Part shown: positions 5,687-58,438 of the stretch, piece by piece
Layout of the letters: each line of letters opens with the position of its first letter
Position numbering within the stretch: the stretch's first letter is position 1
Assembly: GCF_024213555.1 (NCBI RefSeq)
Contig: NZ_JANAVO010000001.1
Span: forward strand, 620,001-684,000
Length of the DNA stretch: 64,000 nucleotides
Source: Allokutzneria sp. A3M-2-11 16
GTDB taxonomy: Bacteria; Actinomycetota; Actinomycetes; Mycobacteriales; Pseudonocardiaceae
Direction: 5' to 3'
Notes under the pieces: generated by a model
Told to the model about the DNA's origin: nothing
Seen by the model: only the letters and a program-made list of their open reading frames with translations
The model's database searches: none
Made by a program: the position numbers and the translations under genes

Positions 5687-6586
5687 TCAAGAGCTGGTGT
5701 CGGTGCACAGCTCGGTGGCGGTCAGGGTGGTCATCTCGGACTCGGTGAAGCCGAACGGGCGCACCGTCGACAGCAGCTCACCGTTGGCCCGCATGAGGTT
5801 GAGCTCGACGTTGAACGCGTCCCGGAAAATCCTCTGGTCACGCCGGAAACCGAACGCGCCGCAGCCGAGCTTGCGCTTGCCGCCGATCACCGGGACGTAG
5901 GTCGGGGTCAGCTCCAGCGGTGCGTCCGGACGCTTGGAAAGGGCGTCCCGCAAGGAGATCGCGGTCAGCGAGAAGGCGTCCGCGCGGTTGGCGAGGATGC
6001 CGTCCAACCCGCTGAAGACGCTGTCGAAGATGACCGCGCGGTCCATCAGGCCGAGATCGGTCGCGTAGCTGATGTTCGCGCTGCCGGTGAGCAGACCAAC
6101 GCGAATGTCTTTCCTGGCAACGATGTCGTCGAGGGTCCTGATCCCCTTGGGGTTGCCCTTCGGCACCATCAGCGACTCGGGCGCCTGGTACTCCGGATCG
6201 GAGAACAGGATCTGCTCGCACCGCGCGGGGGTGACGAACATGCCCGCGGCGATGACGTCGAACACGCCGACCTGGAGCGCCGGGATCAGCGCGCCGAAGT
6301 CGGTGATCCGCGGGTTCATCCGCTCGACACCCAAGCGCTGGAAGACGATCCGCGCCAGCTCGGGCGCTTCGCCGGTGATCCGTCCGGCCCGGTCGACGAA
6401 GCCGTACGGGGCCTCGTTGGCGATCCCGATGTTGACCTCACCGCGGTCGCGAATCCGGCTGAGCAGGTCGCCGCCCGCCTCCTGCGCGGTCAGATCGACT
6501 GTGCTGCAAGAGGAAACGGCCATCCCGAGCGCGCCGGCCGCAGTGCCCATGAGGAAGTTCCGTCTGGAGACGTGCGCGGCACACAC
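5687..6586 (-). CDS. ehuB: Substrate-binding lipoprotein of the ehu-like transporter
   Basis: A 299-residue periplasmic-type binding protein (family 3 solute-binding). The N-terminus has a twin-arginine motif RRNFLMG followed by a hydrophobic stretch and the lipobox-like AVSSC, so it is probably a Tat-exported lipoprotein anchored outside the membrane. Mature features recall EhuB: VNIGIANEAPYGFVDRAG, GEAPELARIVFQRLG, and FDVIAAGMFVTPARC. The GTG at 6586 is chosen because AAGGAGT sits eight bases upstream; the frame extends 19 codons further without a good site. First gene of the importer operon; ectoine or hydroxyectoine is the inferred substrate. Confidence 0.8.
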   Translation of the reverse strand: MCAAHVSRRNFLMGTAAGALGMAVSSCSTVDLTAQEAGGDLLSRIRDRGEVNIGIANEAPYGFVDRAGRITGEAPELARIVFQRLGVERMNPRITDFGALIPALQVGVFDVIAAGMFVTPARCEQILFSDPEYQAPESLMVPKGNPKGIRTLDDIVARKDIRVGLLTGSANISYATDLGLMDRAVIFDSVFSGLDGILANRADAFSLTAISLRDALSKRPDAPLELTPTYVPVIGGKRKLGCGAFGFRRDQRIFRDAFNVELNLMRANGELLSTVRPFGFTESEMTTLTATELCTDTSS

Positions 6587-6624
6587 GAGGGGCGACTCCT
6601 TGCCTCGGCAACAGAACCCGGCGA

Positions 6625-6653
6625 ACGGTAGGTGCGGCGCCACACGGGGTCAA
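6625..6653 (-). promoter_or_regulatory. Sigma-70-type promoter of the ehu-like operon
   Basis: On the minus strand TTGACC (6653-6648) is followed after exactly 17 bases by TACCGT (6630-6625), a TAnnnT -10. A start point about seven bases on would give a 5' leader of roughly 30 bases carrying the AAGGAGT ribosome-binding site of ehuB. Spacing and position are good; the call is from sequence only. Confidence 0.55.
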
Positions 6654-6735
6654 AGGGTCCGTTGTGGACAGCCGCGTTCGCCGCCGCGGGTGTACCCCCC
6701 TTTCCCCCGGTCAAACCGCGAGTTCTATGCGAAGG

Positions 6736-8760
6736 TCACGATTCGGTCAAGCCGTGGGCTTTCCGGATGACCGTCACGATCTCGTCCATGATCTCGGTGA
6801 GCTCGTAGTCCTTGGGCGTGAACACCTTGGCCACACCGCGTTTCAGCAGTTCATCGGCATCGGCGGGCGGGATGATCCCGCCGAGCACCACGGGCACGTC
6901 GGTGACCCCGGCGGCCCTCAAACCCTCCACGACCGCGGGTACGACTTCCAGGTGTGACCCGGACAACACCGACAGTCCGACGACGTGCACGCCCTCCTGT
7001 ACCGCCGCCGCCACGATCTGCGCCGGAGTGAGCCGAATGCCCTGGTAGACCACCTCGAAGCCGACGTCCCTGGCCCGGACGGCGACCTGCTCCGCACCGT
7101 TGGAATGGCCGTCAAGCCCAGGTTTGCCGACCAGGATGCGCAACCGCTCGCCCAGGTCCTCGCCCGCCTTGGCCACCCGCTCCCGAACCCCGGCCAGCGC
7201 GGCACCGGCGACTCCGGCCGCGGACGCCCCGGAAACCCCGGTCGGCGCGCGGTACTCGCCGAAGACCTCGCGCAGCGCCGTCGCCCACTCGCCCGTGGTC
7301 ACCCCGGCCTTGGCGCAGGAAATGGTGGCCGACATGAGGTTCGTTCCGGTCTTGGCCGCCTCGCGCAGCCCGCGCACCGCTCCGTCCACAGTGGACGAAT
7401 CACGCCCGGAGCGCCACGCGCGCACGGCCTCGCTCGCCTCGCGCTCCACCTCCGGGTCGATCGTCTCGATCGCCTTGGCGCCCTCGGCCTGCAACGGACT
7501 CGGCTCGGTGGTGTCGAACTTGTTCAGCCCGACGACGACGTCCTCACCGGACTCCACCCGGCGGCGGCGCTCGGCCAGCGAGGAGACCATCTGCGACTTC
7601 ATGTAGCCGCTCTCCACCGCCGCGACCGCCCCGCCCATCGCCTGCACGCGGTCGATCTCGGCGCGCGCGCCGTCCACGATCTCGTCGACCTTGGCCTGGA
7701 CCACCGGCGACCCGTCGAAAAGGTCTTCGTACTCAAGGAGATCCGTCTCGTACGCGAGCACCTGTTGCATCCGCAGCGCCCACTGCTGGTCCCACGGGCG
7801 CGGCAGACCGAGCGCCTCGTTCCACGCGGGCAACTGGATCGCGCGGGCGCGGGCGTTGCGGGACAAGGAGACCGCGAGCATCTCCAGCACGATCCGCTGG
7901 ACGTTGTTCTCCGGCTGCTGCTCGGTCAGGCCGAGGGAGTTCACCTGCACGCCGTACCGGAAGCGCCGCTGCTTCGGGTTCTCGATGCCGTAGCGGTCGC
8001 GGGTGATCTCCTCCCACAGCACGCCGAACGCGCGCATCTTGCACATCTCCTCGATGAAGCGCACACCCGCGTTCACGAAGAAGGAGATCCGCCCGACCAC
8101 CTCGCCGAAGCGGTCGTCCGGCAGCTGGCCGGAATCGCGCACCGCGTCGAGCACCGAGATCGCCGTGCACATGGCGTAGGCGACCTCCTGCACCGGGGAC
8201 GCGCCGACCTCCTGCAGGTGGTAGCTGCAGATGTTGATCGGGTTCCACTTCGGCACGTGCTGCACCGCCCACGCCACCATGTCGGTGATCAGCCGCAGGC
8301 TCGGCCCCGGCGGGAACACGTAGGTGCCCCGCGACAGGTATTCCTTGATGATGTCGTTCTGCGTGGTGCCCGCGAGCTCGGCCAGCATCTCGTCGCGGTC
8401 AAGGCCCTCGGCCTCGGCCTGCTCCTCGGCGACGCCGACGTAGAGGGCGAGCAGCCACATCGCGGTGGCGTTGATCGTCATCGAGGTGTTGGCCTCGGCG
8501 AGCGGGATGCCGTCGAAGAGCTGGCGCATGTCGCCGATGTGGCTCACCGGGACGCCGACCTTGCCGACCTCGCCGCGGGAGAGCTCGTGGTCGGGGTCGT
8601 AGCCGGTCTGCGTCGGCAGGTCGAACGCCACCGACAGGCCGGTCTGCCCCTTGGCCAGGTTGCGGCGGTAGAGCGCGTTCGACGCGGTCGCCGAGGAGTG
8701 ACCGGCGTAGGTCCGCATCACCCAGGGGCGATCGCGTTCACGGTCGGACGGGTACGGCAC
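6736..8760 (-). CDS. meaA: MeaA-type acyl-CoA mutase (ethylmalonyl-CoA mutase family), B12-dependent
   Basis: A 674-residue single-chain mutase. The N-terminal catalytic barrel shows the family pattern RTYAGHSSATASNALYRRNL, GQTGLSVAFDLPTQTGYD, TTQNDIIKEYLSRGTY, and NINICSYHLQEVGA-like text (PINICSYHLQE). The C-terminal B12 domain has DGHSNG (the DxHxxG cobalt ligand motif), LSVLSGSH and VVLGGIIP. The length and unfused arrangement match MeaA/ethylmalonyl-CoA mutase rather than the two-subunit methylmalonyl-CoA mutase. It would rearrange a branched acyl-CoA, as in the ethylmalonyl-CoA pathway, using adenosylcobalamin. The adenosyltransferase gene at 11354 could provide the cofactor. An inverted-repeat operator candidate lies upstream. 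Confidence 0.87.
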   Translation of the reverse strand: MPYPSDRERDRPWVMRTYAGHSSATASNALYRRNLAKGQTGLSVAFDLPTQTGYDPDHELSRGEVGKVGVPVSHIGDMRQLFDGIPLAEANTSMTINATAMWLLALYVGVAEEQAEAEGLDRDEMLAELAGTTQNDIIKEYLSRGTYVFPPGPSLRLITDMVAWAVQHVPKWNPINICSYHLQEVGASPVQEVAYAMCTAISVLDAVRDSGQLPDDRFGEVVGRISFFVNAGVRFIEEMCKMRAFGVLWEEITRDRYGIENPKQRRFRYGVQVNSLGLTEQQPENNVQRIVLEMLAVSLSRNARARAIQLPAWNEALGLPRPWDQQWALRMQQVLAYETDLLEYEDLFDGSPVVQAKVDEIVDGARAEIDRVQAMGGAVAAVESGYMKSQMVSSLAERRRRVESGEDVVVGLNKFDTTEPSPLQAEGAKAIETIDPEVEREASEAVRAWRSGRDSSTVDGAVRGLREAAKTGTNLMSATISCAKAGVTTGEWATALREVFGEYRAPTGVSGASAAGVAGAALAGVRERVAKAGEDLGERLRILVGKPGLDGHSNGAEQVAVRARDVGFEVVYQGIRLTPAQIVAAAVQEGVHVVGLSVLSGSHLEVVPAVVEGLRAAGVTDVPVVLGGIIPPADADELLKRGVAKVFTPKDYELTEIMDEIVTVIRKAHGLTES
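7384..7396. repeat. Palindrome GTCCACWGTGGAC, copy 2 (in meaA)
   Basis: GTCCACAGTGGAC; coding strand TCC ACT GTG GAC in SSTVDGAVRG. Confidence 0.8.
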
Positions 8761-29926: not shown

Positions 29927-30045
29927 GTCTTCAAGACCCCCCAACCCCATCCGGAACCATCGCAAACCGCCCCCAACCCCGGCGCCCCGGTCGGGTTGGG
30001 GGCGGTTTGCGATCGCTGGGACGGGGGTCGGGGGTACTTGAAGAC
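29927..30045. repeat. Palindromic intergenic element, copy B (119 bp)
   Basis: Outer arms GTCTTCAAG (29927-29935) and CTTGAAGAC (30037-30045); an inner perfect 21-bp arm pair, 29959-29979 with 29993-30013, starts ATCGCAAACCGCC and ends GGCGGTTTGCGAT. Between convergent genes. It shares the right-hand text GCTGGGACGGGGGT with copy C. Confidence 0.85.
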
Positions 30046-51461: not shown

Positions 51462-53534
<2,073 letters not shown>

Positions 53535-53617
53535 GGTGGATTCCTCCAGTCAGCGAACGGACTTCAACACCTGAACCCGCGCGCGGGCCGGGATGTTCCC
53601 CGGCGGGCGCGGGAGCC

Positions 53618-54094
53618 TCAGCGACAGTCGGGAACGTCGTCCGGACCGGTGTTGGAGAGCATGAAGCGCTCGATGGACGCGTCGTAGGTGTCGACGATCT
53701 CCACCGGCTCCTCGGTCACCACGCCGTCGACGATGCGGTAGGAGCGGAACTCGTGCTCCTGCGGGTCACGGGTGGAGACGAGCACGTAGTGCGCGTCGGG
53801 CTCGGCGGCGATGTTCACGTCGGTGCGCGACGGGTAGGCCTCGGTCGCGGTGTGCGAGTGGTAGATGACCACCGGGGCCTCGCCGTTGGCCTCCAGTTCG
53901 CGGTGCAGGCGCAGCTGCTCCATCGAGTCGAACTGGTAGAAGGTCGGCGAACGCGCCGCGTTGGTCATCGGGATGAACCGCTCGGGCCGGTCGGAGCCCT
54001 CGGGACCGGCGAGGACACCGCACGCCTCGTCAGGGTGGTCCTCGCGGGCGTGCGCGACCATCGCGTCCACGAGGTCACGTCGGATCACCAGCAC
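53618..54094 (-). CDS. mec: JAMM/MPN+ metalloprotease (Mec-type)
   Basis: A 158-residue M67 family peptidase. The zinc signature is complete: Glu23 in DHPDEACGVL, His79-x-His81 in IYHSHTATE, and Ser89 and Asp92 in YPSRTD. In M. tuberculosis the equivalent Mec+ frees cysteine from the CysO-Cys adduct. Here it may also trim the CysO precursor. Operon order mec-cysO-cysM is standard. Confidence 0.93.
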   Translation of the reverse strand: MLVIRRDLVDAMVAHAREDHPDEACGVLAGPEGSDRPERFIPMTNAARSPTFYQFDSMEQLRLHRELEANGEAPVVIYHSHTATEAYPSRTDVNIAAEPDAHYVLVSTRDPQEHEFRSYRIVDGVVTEEPVEIVDTYDASIERFMLSNTGPDDVPDCR

Positions 54095-54203
54095 GGCGCC
54101 ATCCTACGGGGACCTGGAAGGGCCGTCCCAGAATGTGAACCCGAGACGCGCAGTTCAGCGCGTGGCGCGGTGTCCGCCAACCTGCGCCGTGCCGAGTCGG
54201 GGT

Positions 54204-54325
54204 GTCTTCAAGTCCCGCGAACCCCGCCGACGATCATCGTTAACCGCACCCAACCCTCGCGGGACTTCGCCGGGGTTTGGGGTGGTTAGTGACAGCTGGG
54301 ACGGGGGTTCGGTGTACTTGAAGAC
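54204..54325. repeat. Palindromic intergenic element, copy C (122 bp)
   Basis: Tips GTCTTCAAG (54204-54212) and CTTGAAGAC (54317-54325); an imperfect inner palindrome around GTTAACCGCACCC and GGGGTGGTTAG. The right arm shares GCTGGGACGGGGGT with copy B. Unlike A and B it lies between two genes of the same direction, upstream of mec and after the DUF2017-like gene. Confidence 0.8.
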
Positions 54326-54357
54326 CCCCGAACCAGGCCCACGTTCATGGACGTGGC

Positions 54358-54972
54358 CTAGTCGCTAGGGGTTGTGGGTTCGCTGTGGCCCCACGCCACC
54401 GCGGCCTCCAGCTGTCGCGCGAGGTCCGGACAGGCCGCGTGCACCAGGACCTCCATCAGGTCCTGGATCATCGTCAGCGTGGCCGCGGCGTCGTGGCCGC
54501 CGACGGTGCCGTGCATGAGACGGGTCCCCTTGCGCGGGGAGAACAGGAAGCGGGCCGCACCGAGCGCCGTCATCCAGTCGTCGAACTCGTCGGCGTCCAG
54601 CCGCACCTCGGCGACCCCGGTCCAGCCACCGAGCACCCTGCGGGTGGAGACCAGCACCTCCGCCCGCACCCCGGGCTCGTGCCGAGCGCGGAAATCGGCC
54701 GAGATGGCCGGGTCCGCGCTGACCGCGGGGAACATCCGGCGCAGCAGGATCGTCTGGCTGAGCCGGACGCGCCTGCCGAACGGCCCGCGGCCCGCCTCCG
54801 GCACGGTGCCCGATTCGAGCACGTCCAGCAGCTGGCGCAGCACCATCCGCACCGTCGCCGCCGCGGTCGGGGTCAGCCGGAGCAGGACCTGGTCGCCCTC
54901 ACGGGCGGTCTGGGCGGGCACGTCGTCGTTGTCGGGTGGCCGCGTGGCCGCGGAGTTCAGCTCTTCCACCAT
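54358..54972 (-). CDS. Divergent DUF2017-like protein
   Basis: About 204 residues. It has the outline of DUF2017 (helical start LTPTAAATVRMVLRQLLDVL, then LLRRMFPAVSADPAISADFRARHE, and VRLDADEFDDWMTALGAARFLF), but only weak resemblance to the canonical copy at 57543. Start uncertain: ATG 54972 is used; a GTG at 55026 overlapping the ClpS-like stop is possible. It mirrors the clpS-DUF2017 pair, placed after a ClpS-like gene. Role unknown; see findings. Confidence 0.65.
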   Translation of the reverse strand: MVEELNSAATRPPDNDDVPAQTAREGDQVLLRLTPTAAATVRMVLRQLLDVLESGTVPEAGRGPFGRRVRLSQTILLRRMFPAVSADPAISADFRARHEPGVRAEVLVSTRRVLGGWTGVAEVRLDADEFDDWMTALGAARFLFSPRKGTRLMHGTVGGHDAAATLTMIQDLMEVLVHAACPDLARQLEAAVAWGHSEPTTPSD

Positions 54973-55000
54973 GGATCCGCTCGCGGGATCGAGCCCCTTC

Positions 55001-55258
55001 TCAGCCAACGGTGGCCACCTCGGCACGGCTCAGGCCGCCGCGCAGTCCGCAGACCATCAGCCCGGACACCAGCCGTTCCGCCTCGGCCCGCTCGGTGAAC
55101 CGCGCCACCTCGGCGTAGCCCTGCTGATGGATCATGATCATTGTGCGGGCCGCGTCGATCAGGGACATGCCGCACACGCGATACAGCACGTACTGCACGA
55201 CGTGCGTGGTGTTGACGTCGTCGTCCCAGACCAGGACGCGCCAGCTCGCGTCGTTCAT
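55001..55258 (-). CDS. Divergent ClpS-like protein
   Basis: About 85 residues: WRVLVWDDDVNTTHVVQYVL, then ARTMIMIHQQGYAEVARF and AERLVSGLMVCGLRGGL. This follows the ClpS fold, including the acidic pair after the first strand and the pocket His (His44) that in ClpS binds the N-terminal amine of substrates, but the N-terminal extension is missing and the end differs from canonical ClpS (58130). Begins 39 bp after the ThiF stop on the same strand. It probably recruits a substrate or partner; interaction with ClpC/ClpA is inferred only. Confidence 0.75.
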   Translation of the reverse strand: MNDASWRVLVWDDDVNTTHVVQYVLYRVCGMSLIDAARTMIMIHQQGYAEVARFTERAEAERLVSGLMVCGLRGGLSRAEVATVG

Positions 55259-55297
55259 CGGGTCAGTATGGCGGGAGCACCCCGGCAACCGAACCCG

Positions 55298-56395
55298 TCA
55301 CCGGCCCGATTTCACCCCGCAGGCTGGACAGTCGGCCAGCCTGGGTGCCTCGACGACGTGCGCCTGCTCGGGGACGACCAGGTTCAGGCCACCGATCCGA
55401 CCGGAGCGCACCGGACTTATTCCGGCGACCAGAGAAATGACCGCATAAGAGGCCAGGAATCCCGCAATACCGGCGGAAGCGGCATGCGCGGCATTACTCG
55501 CGATTTCGGCTTCCTGTGCCGGATCGGCGAGCCGGAGGCATTCGTAGCAGGCACCGAGTCCCGGGACATAAACCGCGACGGCGGCGCGCGGCCCCTGATA
55601 GCCGGCGTCCACCCAGGGCGTCCGGGTCCGCAGGCAGGCGTGGTTGGCCGACTCGTGGACACCGCTGTGCCCGCCGATGGCGAGCACCAGCACGTCGAAG
55701 CGCCGCGCCAGGTCGGTCAGGTCGGTGCGCGAGGCGACGCGCTCGGCCGAGACCGTGACGCTGATGTCGGAGTTGAGATCGCGCAGCCTGGCCGCCGCCG
55801 CCTCCGCCTTGCCCCAGCCGATGTCGGGCTCGGAGTAGATCACCTGGTGGTTGAGGTCGGCCAGCTCCACCGTGCCGTCGTCGACGCAGTGCAGGTGCCC
55901 GACACCACTGGCGGCCAGCGACAACGCCAGCGCGCCGCCGGTTCCGCCGAGGCCGATCACGGCGACGCTGGCGTCCCGCAGCTTGAGCTGGGCCTCCCAC
56001 CTGCTCGGCCGCGGCGCGAGGTCCACCCACCGGTAGAACCGGGCGCCACGGGCGTACCGCGTCCGCTCGCGCTCGGTCAGCTCGTCCGGTTCGTCGGCCC
56101 TGGTGTCCTCGATGTAGCCCATGCCGATGAGCTGGCCGAGCACGCCGCGGATGTCCTCGCGGGTGCTGTCCGGGTGCCGTTCGGCGACGTGGTCGACGAC
56201 CTCGCCCGCGACGCGGGTCCCGTCCAGGTTCTCCAGCAGGGTCCACACGGCGCCGGTCGGATCGGCGATCTCGGTCGCGATTCCGTGCACCGAGCCGCCG
56301 ACCCTTATTCGGTCGGCGGAAATCCGGTGCGGCGCGTGCTCCGGTTTCACCCTCGGCTTCGCGCGCTCCACGAACTTCACATCGAACACCCCCAA
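55298..56395 (-). CDS. E1-like ThiF-family adenylyltransferase with N-terminal PqqD-like domain
   Basis: Up to 365 residues. N-terminal part (about 35-97: ADPTGAVWTLLENLDGTRVAG and REDIRGVLGQLIGMGYIED) has the winged-helix look of PqqD-like peptide-recognition domains. The E1 domain follows: VAVIGLGGTGGALALSL (ATP loop, 146-160), DGTVELADLNHQ (His183 where most E1 proteins have Arg), DIGWGKAEAA (Lys196), and two zinc CxxC pairs, CYEC (283/286) and CPAC (356/359). The start is uncertain (TTG 56395, GTG 56389 or 56380). First gene of a three-gene set. A carboxyl-activating enzyme for a peptide or for CysO are both possible. Confidence 0.8.
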   Translation of the reverse strand: MGVFDVKFVERAKPRVKPEHAPHRISADRIRVGGSVHGIATEIADPTGAVWTLLENLDGTRVAGEVVDHVAERHPDSTREDIRGVLGQLIGMGYIEDTRADEPDELTERERTRYARGARFYRWVDLAPRPSRWEAQLKLRDASVAVIGLGGTGGALALSLAASGVGHLHCVDDGTVELADLNHQVIYSEPDIGWGKAEAAAARLRDLNSDISVTVSAERVASRTDLTDLARRFDVLVLAIGGHSGVHESANHACLRTRTPWVDAGYQGPRAAVAVYVPGLGACYECLRLADPAQEAEIASNAAHAASAGIAGFLASYAVISLVAGISPVRSGRIGGLNLVVPEQAHVVEAPRLADCPACGVKSGR

Positions 56396-56491
56396 ACCCG
56401 GGCGAACCTATCGGCGCCGGGAACCGGGCGTCAATTGACCTGATACAACGCTGGGGCGCGCCTGAGCGGGATTTGACGATGCAATCCGAAT

Positions 56492-57550
56492 TTATTTCGG
56501 AGCACTCCGAAACGCGGACGGGTAGAGATCGCGGTAGGCGGGCTTCCCGGCGACCGCGACGGCCGCGAGCATCGCGCGCACGACCGCGCGGGTGACCGCG
56601 TCCGCCGCCGCGACGCACAGCCGGTCGAGCTCGCGCGGCCGGGTCTCGGTGGTGCGGTAGCGGTGCCCGGCCCCCGTGGGCAGCTCCCGCTCCCCCGTCG
56701 CGAGCACGAAGAACGTGTCGCCGTCGTACATGGTGTGCGCGGGCCGGACCGCGCGGGCCAGCCCGTCGTGAGCCGCGATCGCCAGCCGCTGGCACTCCGC
56801 CTTGCTCAACGCGGCGTCCGTCGCGACGACACCTATGGTGGTGTTCAGCGGCTCCGGCTTCGCACCGAGGCGCTCGCGAGCGGCGGCGACCTCACCGTCG
56901 TTGGGCGCGTCGATACCGAACTCGTCGGCGACCTCAACGGACGCGCCCCACGGCAGACCGCTGTTGGGGTCCACGGCCTCACCGCAGGCGTTCATGGCCA
57001 GCAGAACGCCCACTGTGCAGCTGTCGGTCACAACGGTGCTCGCGGTGCCTATACCGCCTTTGAGCATTCCGGCCGTCGCACCGGTTCCCGCGCCGACGCA
57101 ACCCATCACCACCGCGCCGTCAGTCGCGGCTTCACAGGCTGTGTAACCGAAATGCGCGTCCGGGCGGTTTCCCCAGTCGGACAGCGGGAGGTCGAACAGC
57201 ACCGCGGCCGGCACCAGGGGCACGACCTGTCCAGGCTCCGCACCGACCTGGAAACCGATCCCGCGCTCGCCCAGCCACCGCATGACGCCGTCCGCGCTGG
57301 CGAGGCCGTAGGCGCTGCCTCCTGTTAGGCACACGCCATGCACGCGCTGTATGAGCGTGGACGGCTCCAGTGCGGAGGTCTCACGCGTGCCCGGCGCTCC
57401 ACCACGGGTGTCGACCGCAGGGGTCGCGCCCTTGTCCGCCAAGACGACGGTGGTGCCGGTCGCCCATCCGTCTCCGATTCGCTCGTAGTGCCCAACGCGG
57501 ATTCCAGGGACATCGGTGATCGCGTTGTGCGCTCCGGGCAAATCAGTCAT
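56492..57550 (-). CDS. P1-family (DmpA-like) aminopeptidase
   Basis: A 352-residue Ntn-type self-processing peptidase/amidohydrolase. Motifs: NAITDVPGIRVGHYERIGDG at the start, LTGGSAYGLASADGVMRWL, and the nucleophile region around VEVADEFGIDAPNDGE/NTTIGVVATDAALSK, where autocleavage gives a new N-terminal Thr or Ser (NTTIGVV reads most like it). Corresponds to mycobacterial Rv1333. Overlaps the canonical DUF2017 stop. Confidence 0.87.
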   Translation of the reverse strand: MTDLPGAHNAITDVPGIRVGHYERIGDGWATGTTVVLADKGATPAVDTRGGAPGTRETSALEPSTLIQRVHGVCLTGGSAYGLASADGVMRWLGERGIGFQVGAEPGQVVPLVPAAVLFDLPLSDWGNRPDAHFGYTACEAATDGAVVMGCVGAGTGATAGMLKGGIGTASTVVTDSCTVGVLLAMNACGEAVDPNSGLPWGASVEVADEFGIDAPNDGEVAAARERLGAKPEPLNTTIGVVATDAALSKAECQRLAIAAHDGLARAVRPAHTMYDGDTFFVLATGERELPTGAGHRYRTTETRPRELDRLCVAAADAVTRAVVRAMLAAVAVAGKPAYRDLYPSAFRSAPK

Positions 57551-58133
57551 AGGCAGGATCGTCGTCGAACAGCAGCTCGTTGACCAGACTCCCCTGCACC
57601 CAGGTCAGCCATTGGTAGACGCCGTAGTGCGGGGCGCGGGGGTCGCTCGGGTCGAGCTCGTCCGGCATGTCGTCGGTGAGGTCGAGGGCGGTGCCCAGCG
57701 CGATGCGCACGTCGTTCAGCGCCGCGACCCAGGACTCGGCCTCCGCGTCGGTCAGCCGGGCCACTCCGCCGTCGACGGGGCACGTCTCCATGACCACCGT
57801 GGTCGCCGCCGTCTTCGCCTCCAGCACCGCGGGCTCGTGCAGCGACCGCAGCGCCGCCGCCGAGTTGGCGTACTCGGCGTCGAGCTCGCCCTCCGGGTCC
57901 TGCATGCTCGCGCGGTGGAAGTCCGGCAGCAGCCGAGCCATGATCGGGTTCTCCGGCGCCAACGACGGCCCGGTGCGGATGCCGGTCAGGGCGGCCAGCT
58001 CGTCCTGCGGGGCCTCCTCGGCCCTGCCGATGAGCATGTCCCTGATCTGGTCGACCATGCCGCGGATGAGCGCGGCCTCCTGCTGTGCCAGCGTCGCCAC
58101 GAGGCGATCGCCTTCACGACGCCAACTGTTCAC
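57543..58133 (-). CDS. DUF2017 family protein (canonical)
   Basis: A 196-residue helical protein: [71 protein letters not shown] and [14 protein letters not shown] are typical of the family. GTG 58133 overlaps the clpS stop as GTGA. Present next to clpS in actinobacteria; function unknown. Confidence 0.88.
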
Positions 58134-58438
58134 GAGTCCCGCTGCATGGTCGCCCAGAGACCCGCGGCGTGCAGCTTCGCCACGTCGGCCTCGACCTTCT
58201 CCTTGGCACCGGAGGACACCACGGCCCTGCCTTTGCTGTGCACATCCATCATCAGCTTCTCGGCGTGATCCCTGCTGAAGCCAAAGAGCTTCTGGAAGAC
58301 ATGGGTGACGTAGGACATCAGGTTGACCGGGTCGTTCCACACGACCGTCATCCACGGTTTGTCTTGGGCACCGACCGCGTCCTCGGTCGGCTCAACCTGT
58401 GTCCGCTCCTGCGCAACAAGCGTGGACATGGGGACCAT
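58130..58438 (-). CDS. clpS: ATP-dependent Clp protease adaptor ClpS
   Basis: A 102-residue N-recognin delivering N-degron substrates to the Clp protease. [36 protein letters not shown], and the C-terminus [13 protein letters not shown] match actinobacterial ClpS. Starts ATG 58438 with GGGAG upstream; divergent from pncB. Confidence 0.95.

Follow-up and report, generated by a model that had tools for sequence, protein, structure and literature searches.

A ThiF homolog lacking catalytic residues precedes a second ClpS-DUF2017 pair at the mec locus of Allokutzneria: a candidate peptide scaffold

Gene layout of the mec locus

We analyzed a window of 64,000 nt (the whole stretch of DNA under study, positions 620,001 to 684,000 of contig NZ_JANAVO010000001.1) from the 8.8 Mb genome of Allokutzneria sp. 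A3M-2-11 16, in which three minus-strand genes encode an E1-like protein of the ThiF family, a second ClpS-like adaptor (ClpS2), and a diverged second DUF2017 protein (DUF2017b). Along the minus strand the gene order is clpS1, DUF2017 (AosR-like), peptidase S58, thiF, clpS2, DUF2017b, mec, cysO, and cysM (Table 1). An earlier note, made from the DNA letters alone, had named the three proteins, taken the latter two for second copies, and placed the row between the P1 (S58) peptidase gene and mec. Each of these points was borne out: all three proteins gave clear Pfam matches, a canonical ClpS-DUF2017 pair lies on the far side of the S58 gene, and S58 and mec do flank the row.

The thiF and clpS2 genes are 39 nt apart, and clpS2 and DUF2017b are separated by 28 or –8 nt; all lie on the same strand, and the gaps are short in all three Allokutzneria species. 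DUF2017b has an alternative possible start at 55026. Gene order was identical in 3/3 Allokutzneria genomes examined, and ratios of nonsynonymous to synonymous substitution (dN/dS) of 0.13-0.29 across thiF, clpS2, and DUF2017b in comparisons within the genus indicate purifying selection on all three. These observations confirm both the existence and the placement of the three genes, and show that their arrangement is more than chance.

Table 1. Features of the locus. RRE, RiPP recognition element; RiPP, ribosomally synthesized and post-translationally modified peptide.
Feature	Position	Strand	Evidence
ThiF (probable pseudo-E1: RRE-like N-domain plus ThiF/E1 fold)	55298..56395	-	Pfam ThiF 8e-40
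ThiF start codon	TTG at 56395 or GTG at 56389		
RRE-like winged-helix part of ThiF, about residues 12-97	56105..56362	-	AlphaFold2 strand/helix order, PaaA match
ThiF degenerate nucleotide pocket, codons G174, D180, H183	55847..55876	-	Alignment; homologs have D, N, R
ThiF codon G241; catalytic Asp (MoeB D130) in all 50 aligned homologs	55673..55675	-	Alignment
ClpS2, second ClpS-like adaptor	55001..55258	-	Pfam ClpS 2.7e-13; PDB match ClpS 9ayn
DUF2017b, diverged second copy of DUF2017/AosR-type protein	54358..~54972	-	Pfam DUF2017 5.1e-18; alignment with AosR copies
Possible promoter TTGACG-N18-TAGGTT, just 5' of ThiF start	56405..56434	-	By eye, weak
Peptidase S58 (P1/DmpA type), left edge of slot	56492..57550	-	Pfam 3e-70
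mec (JAMM peptidase), right edge of slot	53618..54094	-	Pfam Prok-JAB 1e-29
cysO (ThiS-like)	53256..53534	-	Pfam ThiS 4e-19
cysM (cysteine synthase)	52301..53251	-	NCBIfam cysKM above cut-off
Canonical DUF2017	57543..~58100	-	Pfam 8.1e-46; best NCBIfam match AosR, 217 bits, cut-off 260
Canonical ClpS (ClpS1)	58130..58438	-	Pfam 3.5e-22; NCBIfam ClpS 148 bits, above cut-off
Copy of a dispersed inverted repeat, in the DUF2017b-mec gap	54204..54325		

ThiF and its relatives

Among PDB sequence matches of ThiF, MccB was best (3e-24, level with E. coli ThiF), and PaaA matched at 4e-18, the phmmer match to PaaA spanning the N-domain (query 12-238). Sequence alone gives little support to the PqqD-like N-domain described in the earlier note (Pfam PqqD, E = 0.15), but the domain is supported by the PaaA match and by an AlphaFold2 model built from 22 sequences (predicted local distance difference test 86.6, predicted template modeling score 0.84), in which three strands and three helices take up the layout of an RRE and are followed by the E1 fold. 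We conclude that ThiF is predicted to carry an N-terminal RRE. The E1 fold, the glycine-rich loop, and two CxxC zinc pairs (four zinc cysteines) are kept in Allokutzneria ThiF. The nearest named relative among the matches, Allokutzneria sp. NRRL B-24872 (L141), has an 85% identical ThiF, and named homologs outside the genus are 38-47% identical.

Counted from 56395, as are all ThiF residue numbers here, residues 174, 180, 183, 196, and 241 of the window protein correspond to MoeB D64, N70, R73, K86, and D130, where the numbers D64 and N70 come from our own count along the MoeB sequence. In 50 aligned homologs we found D174 in 50/50, N180 in 49/50, R183 in 49/50, K196 in 50/50, and D241 in 50/50 (counts that leave out the L090 protein at 7093-8424, an unrelated E1 with a JAB-like part), and in the named homologs L142-L165 both Asp, the Asn, and the Lys were present in 24/24 and the Arg in 23/24. 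The 3/3 Allokutzneria proteins read G174, D180, H183, K196, and G241, so that the Asp, Asn, Arg, and Asp are lost and the Lys is kept. MoeB R73, K86, and D130 are named as active-site residues with matches in human UBA1 (PMC12355090), and in yeast Tcd2, changing the corresponding Arg and Asp left 9% and 0.65% of product, respectively (PMC13139853). Having lost catalytic residues that the homologs keep, Allokutzneria ThiF should activate neither CysO nor a peptide, contrary to what the earlier note had suggested. Judging from the alignment, it is most likely a dead (pseudo-) E1 whose gene is still maintained.

The dN/dS of ThiF was 0.21-0.24 in the three pairwise Allokutzneria comparisons, inside the range of 0.12-0.40 found for 23 pairs of intact homologs. 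Between species, identity in alignment numbering was 70-79% over residues 166-255 (the pocket), 90-91% over residues 1-105 (the RRE), and 97-98% over residues 106-165; the pocket was 83-86% identical in two pairs of intact homologs. By these measures constraint has eased in the pocket and not elsewhere, and the protein is not decaying. In a tree that includes the L090 E1 as a long outlier, the Allokutzneria proteins grouped as a single clade (100/100) whose stem measures 0.84 changes per column, adjoining homologs from Micromonospora and Rugosimonospora (94/91).

CysO, the ubiquitin-like protein encoded nearby, has another possible activator. A MoeZ with a rhodanese domain is encoded elsewhere in the genome (NCBIfam MoeZ, 739 bits, cut-off 647; motifs intact by eye), and mycobacterial MoeZ has been given a role in cysteine biosynthesis (PMC3227635). 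Activation of CysO by Allokutzneria ThiF is thus unlikely, with MoeZ the other E1 candidate. The window CysO ends in GGAR rather than GG (encoded at 53256-53264, the 3' end of cysO); among 10 loci, CysO ended in GG in 3/10 and in GG plus AR, SR, or MR in 7/10, an ending that we considered and rejected as a ThiF-linked signature, as four of those seven loci lack ThiF. Where CysO carries two residues after GG, the JAMM peptidase Mec may have to trim it before use.

Relatives of ThiF at E ≤ 1e-30 were present in 58 of 390 genomes of the host's family and in 2/396 genomes of a phylum sample, one of them the window genome. We retrieved as much as 20 kb of DNA for 59 of the family's 69 places other than the window and for the one other phylum hit, 60 loci in all (L019 and L037 were shorter, at contig ends). 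ClpS2 and DUF2017b stood beside ThiF in 2/60 (tblastn, E ≤ 1e-3), both from Allokutzneria, and ClpS, DUF2017b, Mec, and CysO were absent near 25 named homologs (L142-L166, mostly 5 kb each side; several are from the same genomes as the 60 loci). The triplet whose conservation the earlier note proposed to test is accordingly kept in 3/3 Allokutzneria genomes and found nowhere else among the loci examined, 58/60 ThiF loci lacking the other two genes and the pair recurring by itself at mec. ThiF belongs to an RRE plus E1 family of MccB/PaaA-like, RiPP type, whose members elsewhere have intact catalytic residues and no ClpS neighbor. No ocin-ThiF model was among the 25 of 29 NCBIfam matches listed, and no YcaO enzyme was found among the nine proteins scanned at 52301-58438.

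Many of the homologs carry a short open reading frame (ORF) upstream. We trained a hidden Markov model (HMM) on such ORFs from half of 39 closer non-Allokutzneria homologs and held out the other half; the training peptides were chosen by a loose motif present in 13-18 of 19-20 training genes, and the test loci are relatives of the training loci. Over three random two-fold splits the model matched 17+16, 19+14, and 17+15 of the 39 held-out genes (32-33/39), with matches to 0/1045 other genes in each split and to 0/3 Allokutzneria genes; an initial single split, with L090 still included, gave 18/20. The candidate precursors have about 20-25 residues, for example MIEIVMVEREDAVHHVYCHDNN and MIEFIEVHRETTFSSPTQQS, and usually end within about 40 nt of the ThiF start. 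The next gene downstream belongs to cluster c0 or c4 in 38/39 loci and is convergent in 36 (hand count); by Pfam, one c0 member is an NB-ARC plus TPR protein and one c4 member an HTH plus DUF5753 protein, and a gene near c4 presumably encodes a DUF397 protein. The sister homologs from Micromonospora and Rugosimonospora have a different candidate peptide, downstream, with the motif I-[ED]-I-R-K-L-D. The homolog loci thus have RiPP-like layouts in which the peptides are candidate precursors, and the RiPP-like pathway that the earlier note offered as its alternative fits this family.

Neither peptide type was recognized in the window or in L077 and L078, the loci (20 kb each) of the two congeners (HMMs and motif scan; best HMM E 0.15), and two genome searches with single peptides, insensitive and run without a positive control, were empty. 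An ORF of 17-24 residues before the window thiF (ending ...LYQVN) was rejected as a precursor: the frame in L078 lacks a matching start, and the precursor HMMs miss it. Where the homologs carry the precursor ORF, the three Allokutzneria species share promoter-like hexamers with common spacing (by eye), and a consensus promoter scan found none at 56405..56434.

Several further loci came to light alongside these comparisons. The RRE-ThiF group of Amycolatopsis, Saccharothrix, and kin (L038-L052, L066-L076, and L079-L094; e.g., L084:9597-10694 and L079:9090-10169) mostly has a tiny conserved upstream ORF and a convergent XRE/DUF5753 or NB-ARC/TPR gene. We regard it as a candidate undescribed RiPP or peptide-signal system; a search of the open literature, judged by title and start of abstract, returned no work on it. 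In L059-L064 a more distant ThiF stands beside an exporter that by eye looks MFS-like and an oligoendopeptidase of M3 type (by Pfam, for L063); 5/6 have a short peptide of the form M-T-x-x-x-[KR]-[IV]-R-K-T-S upstream, which makes this another candidate RiPP cassette. L090 has beside its RRE-ThiF gene, at 6443-8424, a ubiquitin-like-looking ORF, a small E2-like ORF, and the E1 with a JAB-like part (by eye), a possible E1-E2-ubiquitin-like cassette. In the window genome itself, contig C40 (L004:1393-2427) encodes a further ThiF of 344 aa, which has a long extension at its N-terminus and motifs that by eye look intact; a methyltransferase-like gene lies nearby, and this is possibly another RiPP-type locus. 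The C40 protein is not a close relative, as the genome held no second match to the window ThiF at E ≤ 1e-30.

The ClpS2-DUF2017b pair and the mec slot

ClpS2 scored 49.9 bits against Pfam ClpS (cut-off 23), which places it in the ClpS fold family. In E. coli ClpS, pocket residues including D35 and H66, which bind the alpha-amino group, serve in N-degron binding. The Allokutzneria ClpS2 keeps W33, D35, N38, M62, and H66 and has T in place of the gate residue M40. Across 34 ClpS2 paralog rows, some of them partial, Asp35 was present in 34/34, Asn38 in 26, His66 in 16/33, and Met40 in only 3; canonical ClpS copies were uniform at these positions (10/10). The C-terminal Trp region is changed in ClpS2, and by eye the Trp94 contact in a docking table for M. 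tuberculosis ClpS (PMC6274998, which gives the numbering of that protein) is not conserved. We read ClpS2, from its residues, as a probable ClpS-type adaptor with shifted specificity.

DUF2017b matched Pfam DUF2017 with 66.3 bits against a cut-off of 25. No NCBIfam model, AosR included, matched it, and the canonical copy itself reached 217 bits against the AosR cut-off of 260; that DUF2017 has an AosR-type role is our assumption, in line with the NCBIfam name. No solved structure gave a credible match to DUF2017. PADLOC returned no match for ClpS2 or DUF2017b, and we set aside an anti-phage assignment of ThiF: the best 25 of its 27 PADLOC matches were all to E1-E2 models on the E1 domain, the best at 3e-13.

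A DUF2017b match (E ≤ 1e-5) was found in 52/390 family genomes, three of them Allokutzneria, and we fetched 20 of the other 49 at that match. A ClpS-like gene lay directly upstream in 20/20, as called by tblastn in 17, by clustering in L134 and L137, and by kinship to L129 in L124 (for L129 itself Pfam ClpS gives 18.3, short of its cut-off of 23). Seven of the 20 loci (L124, L129, L131, L133, L134, L135, and L137) have the pair between S58 and mec, together with three further ORFs in L135, and the other 13 have it elsewhere; L139 carries two pairs in tandem, and L134 two DUF2017b genes.

The slot was also approached from the canonical gene. Pfam ClpS, which can miss divergent copies, matched 384/386 family genomes, with two or three matches in 70 (hand count). 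We fetched the canonical ClpS region of 10 single-ClpS and 10 multi-ClpS (two or three) genomes, hand-picked rather than random. S58 was followed by mec with no detectable pair between them in 10/10 single-ClpS genomes, and the pair filled the slot in 9/10 multi-ClpS genomes (in L240 the S58 match was partial). In the tenth, L237, the slot is occupied by other ORFs, one of them an ArsR-like gene (6644-8209, by eye). The S58-mec slot looks insertion-prone on this sampling. Across the phylum sample DUF2017 was present in 154/396 genomes, with two matches only in G064, in the window genome, and in G307, where the matched stretches adjoin and probably form one gene, so second copies are rare outside the host's family. 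From these distributions, ClpS2-DUF2017b is a recurrent paralog of the canonical clpS-DUF2017 (aosR) pair, and the pair and ThiF have two histories.

Within the slot, the DUF2017b-mec gap measures 263 nt in the window, with one copy of an imperfect dispersed inverted repeat with arms GTCTTCAAGTNCNNNGAACC, and 69 and 125 nt in the congeners. Besides the copy in Table 1, the window holds copies at 1312-1419 and 29927-30045. The arms matched 413 times (≤1 mismatch) in the window genome and 10 and 13 times in two congeners, and a reversed-pattern control gave 0, 0, and 1 matches, respectively. We read the element as a species-specific burst of a type resembling repetitive extragenic palindromes or miniature inverted-repeat transposable elements.

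Interpretation and comparison with known systems

The explanation that we tentatively prefer, without holding it to be the probable one outright, is that a RiPP-type E1 lost its adenylation chemistry and became a non-catalytic RRE peptide scaffold recruited to ClpS2/DUF2017b. An RRE-bearing, MccB/PaaA-like E1 gene would have come to lie before a diverged ClpS-DUF2017 pair in the mec slot of Allokutzneria, and the ThiF encoded there would have lost its chemistry. The pseudo-E1 would then serve as a non-catalytic scaffold, like the RRE-E1 scaffolds of azole RiPPs, with its RRE binding a peptide or protein tail and presenting it to ClpS2. ClpS2 might hand the bound peptide or tail to ClpC-ClpP, or the peptide might tune the AosR-like DUF2017b; ubiquitin-like conjugation would play no part. 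The fully wired form of this idea, a dead RRE-based peptide receptor tied to a second ClpS-DUF2017 module for modification-free presentation to Clp or AosR-like sensing, is rather doubtful.

The sequences show an intact gene under selection that encodes an RRE and an E1 fold; its ATP/Mg site has lost Asp, Asn, Arg, and Asp, and no recognizable precursor lies nearby. Several points weigh against the scaffold explanation. Its scaffold step, the contact, and the recruitment to ClpS2/DUF2017b are steps that we infer, and neither a precursor nor another ligand was recognized in the window, L077, or L078. The triplet occurs in one genus only, so its co-occurrence carries little statistical weight, and ClpS2-DUF2017b occurs without ThiF in every other locus examined. 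The dN/dS of ThiF exceeds that of mec, cysM, and canonical DUF2017 (0.03-0.16). H66 is present in only 16/33 ClpS2 paralogs, so that N-terminal recognition is not constant across the group. One homolog (L074, the same as L163) has the Arg-to-His change alone with both Asp kept, and hence Arg-to-His by itself need not mean a dead enzyme.

Nearly as likely is that the pseudo-E1 is a hitchhiker with a job of its own, for example as a peptide-binding regulator from a RiPP or signaling cassette, that merely sits in an insertion-prone slot, with ClpS2-DUF2017b working independently. This ThiF does not accompany the pair in any of the 20 DUF2017b loci that we fetched or of the nine mec-slot loci of other genera, the slot takes other inserts (as in L237), and the branching of ThiF with Micromonosporaceae homologs suggests a separate arrival; the close, same-strand spacing in all three species and the selection on all three genes speak for a connection instead.

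We think it unlikely that ThiF still works as a RiPP enzyme whose chemistry has changed, or as the inactive member of a heterodimer, with its precursor encoded at another place. The RRE and fold are kept, the three species agree on D180 and H183, which could make up a new site, and in yeast a protein without the Arg, Tcd1, supports an active partner (PMC13139853). The C40 ThiF could be such a partner, which makes this explanation slightly more likely and the scaffold one slightly less so; however, that protein is on another contig and is not a close relative, neither precursor type was recognized in the window, L077, or L078, and the single-peptide genome searches, insensitive as they are, were empty. 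That ThiF is an active E1 adenylating CysO or a peptide and coupling it to Clp, as the earlier note had it, is very improbable: cysO and mec lie in the neighborhood, and such coupling was proposed for the canonical operon (PMC1779556), but four ATP/Mg-site residues are lost in all three species, a MoeZ with intact motifs is encoded elsewhere, and no cysO or ClpS stands beside RRE-ThiF in the loci examined outside the genus.

The idea of an E1 plus ClpS at the CysO operon is now split into parts that can be tested: a second ClpS-DUF2017 pair that recurs at mec across several genera, and a naturally occurring E1 that has lost catalytic residues and kept a peptide-binding domain. Should ClpS2 indeed receive peptides from the pseudo-E1, the latter would be a degradation adaptor of bacteria that evolved from an activating enzyme and works without conjugation. 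The comparison also exposed actinobacterial RRE-ThiF loci, most of which have a regulator (XRE or NB-ARC/TPR) next to a tiny candidate precursor. Our search of the open literature returned no work on DUF2017 or on ThiF, ClpS, and DUF2017 together and, by title and start of abstract, none on a pseudo-E1 of this type. Within that literature, two things would be new: the recurrence of a second ClpS-DUF2017 pair in the mec slot and, in one genus, an inactivated RRE-E1 ahead of it. The link between modification and ClpS, which the earlier note took to be undescribed, is not: Iyer et al. in 2006 (PMC1779556, row 4d) listed an actinobacterial operon of CysO, JAMM, cysteine synthase, ClpS, and a helical protein, which we take to be DUF2017, and proposed modification before ClpS-dependent degradation.

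The locus described here is of that operon type, with its ClpS and helical protein (PMC1779556), and differs in having a second, diverged ClpS-DUF2017 pair and, in one genus, a pseudo-E1. Like ClpS N-recognin adaptors, the ClpS2 paralogs match Pfam ClpS and have Asp35 in 34/34 rows; they differ in that gate residue M40 is mostly replaced, H66 is variable, the C-terminal Trp region is changed, and the partner is a diverged DUF2017. ThiF resembles the RiPP adenylyltransferases MccB, PaaA, and GrcB in its N-terminal RRE fused to an E1 fold (PMC12250964) and in the short candidate precursor ORFs of its homologs, but the catalytic Asp, Asn, Arg, and Asp are lost, no precursor was recognized, and the gene lies at mec. 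The scaffold role that we propose has its closest model in azole pathways: TclI in micrococcin synthesis is proposed to bind the leader via its RRE and present it to enzymes (PMC10634744), and ocin-ThiF proteins bind leaders in other such pathways (PMC4603692). Allokutzneria ThiF shares with these thiazole/oxazole-modified microcin (TOMM) F scaffolds the RRE, the E1-like fold, and, as proposed, use as a peptide-presenting scaffold, but its nearest relatives are RRE-ThiF proteins whose catalytic residues are intact, and it does not appear to be a member of their family.

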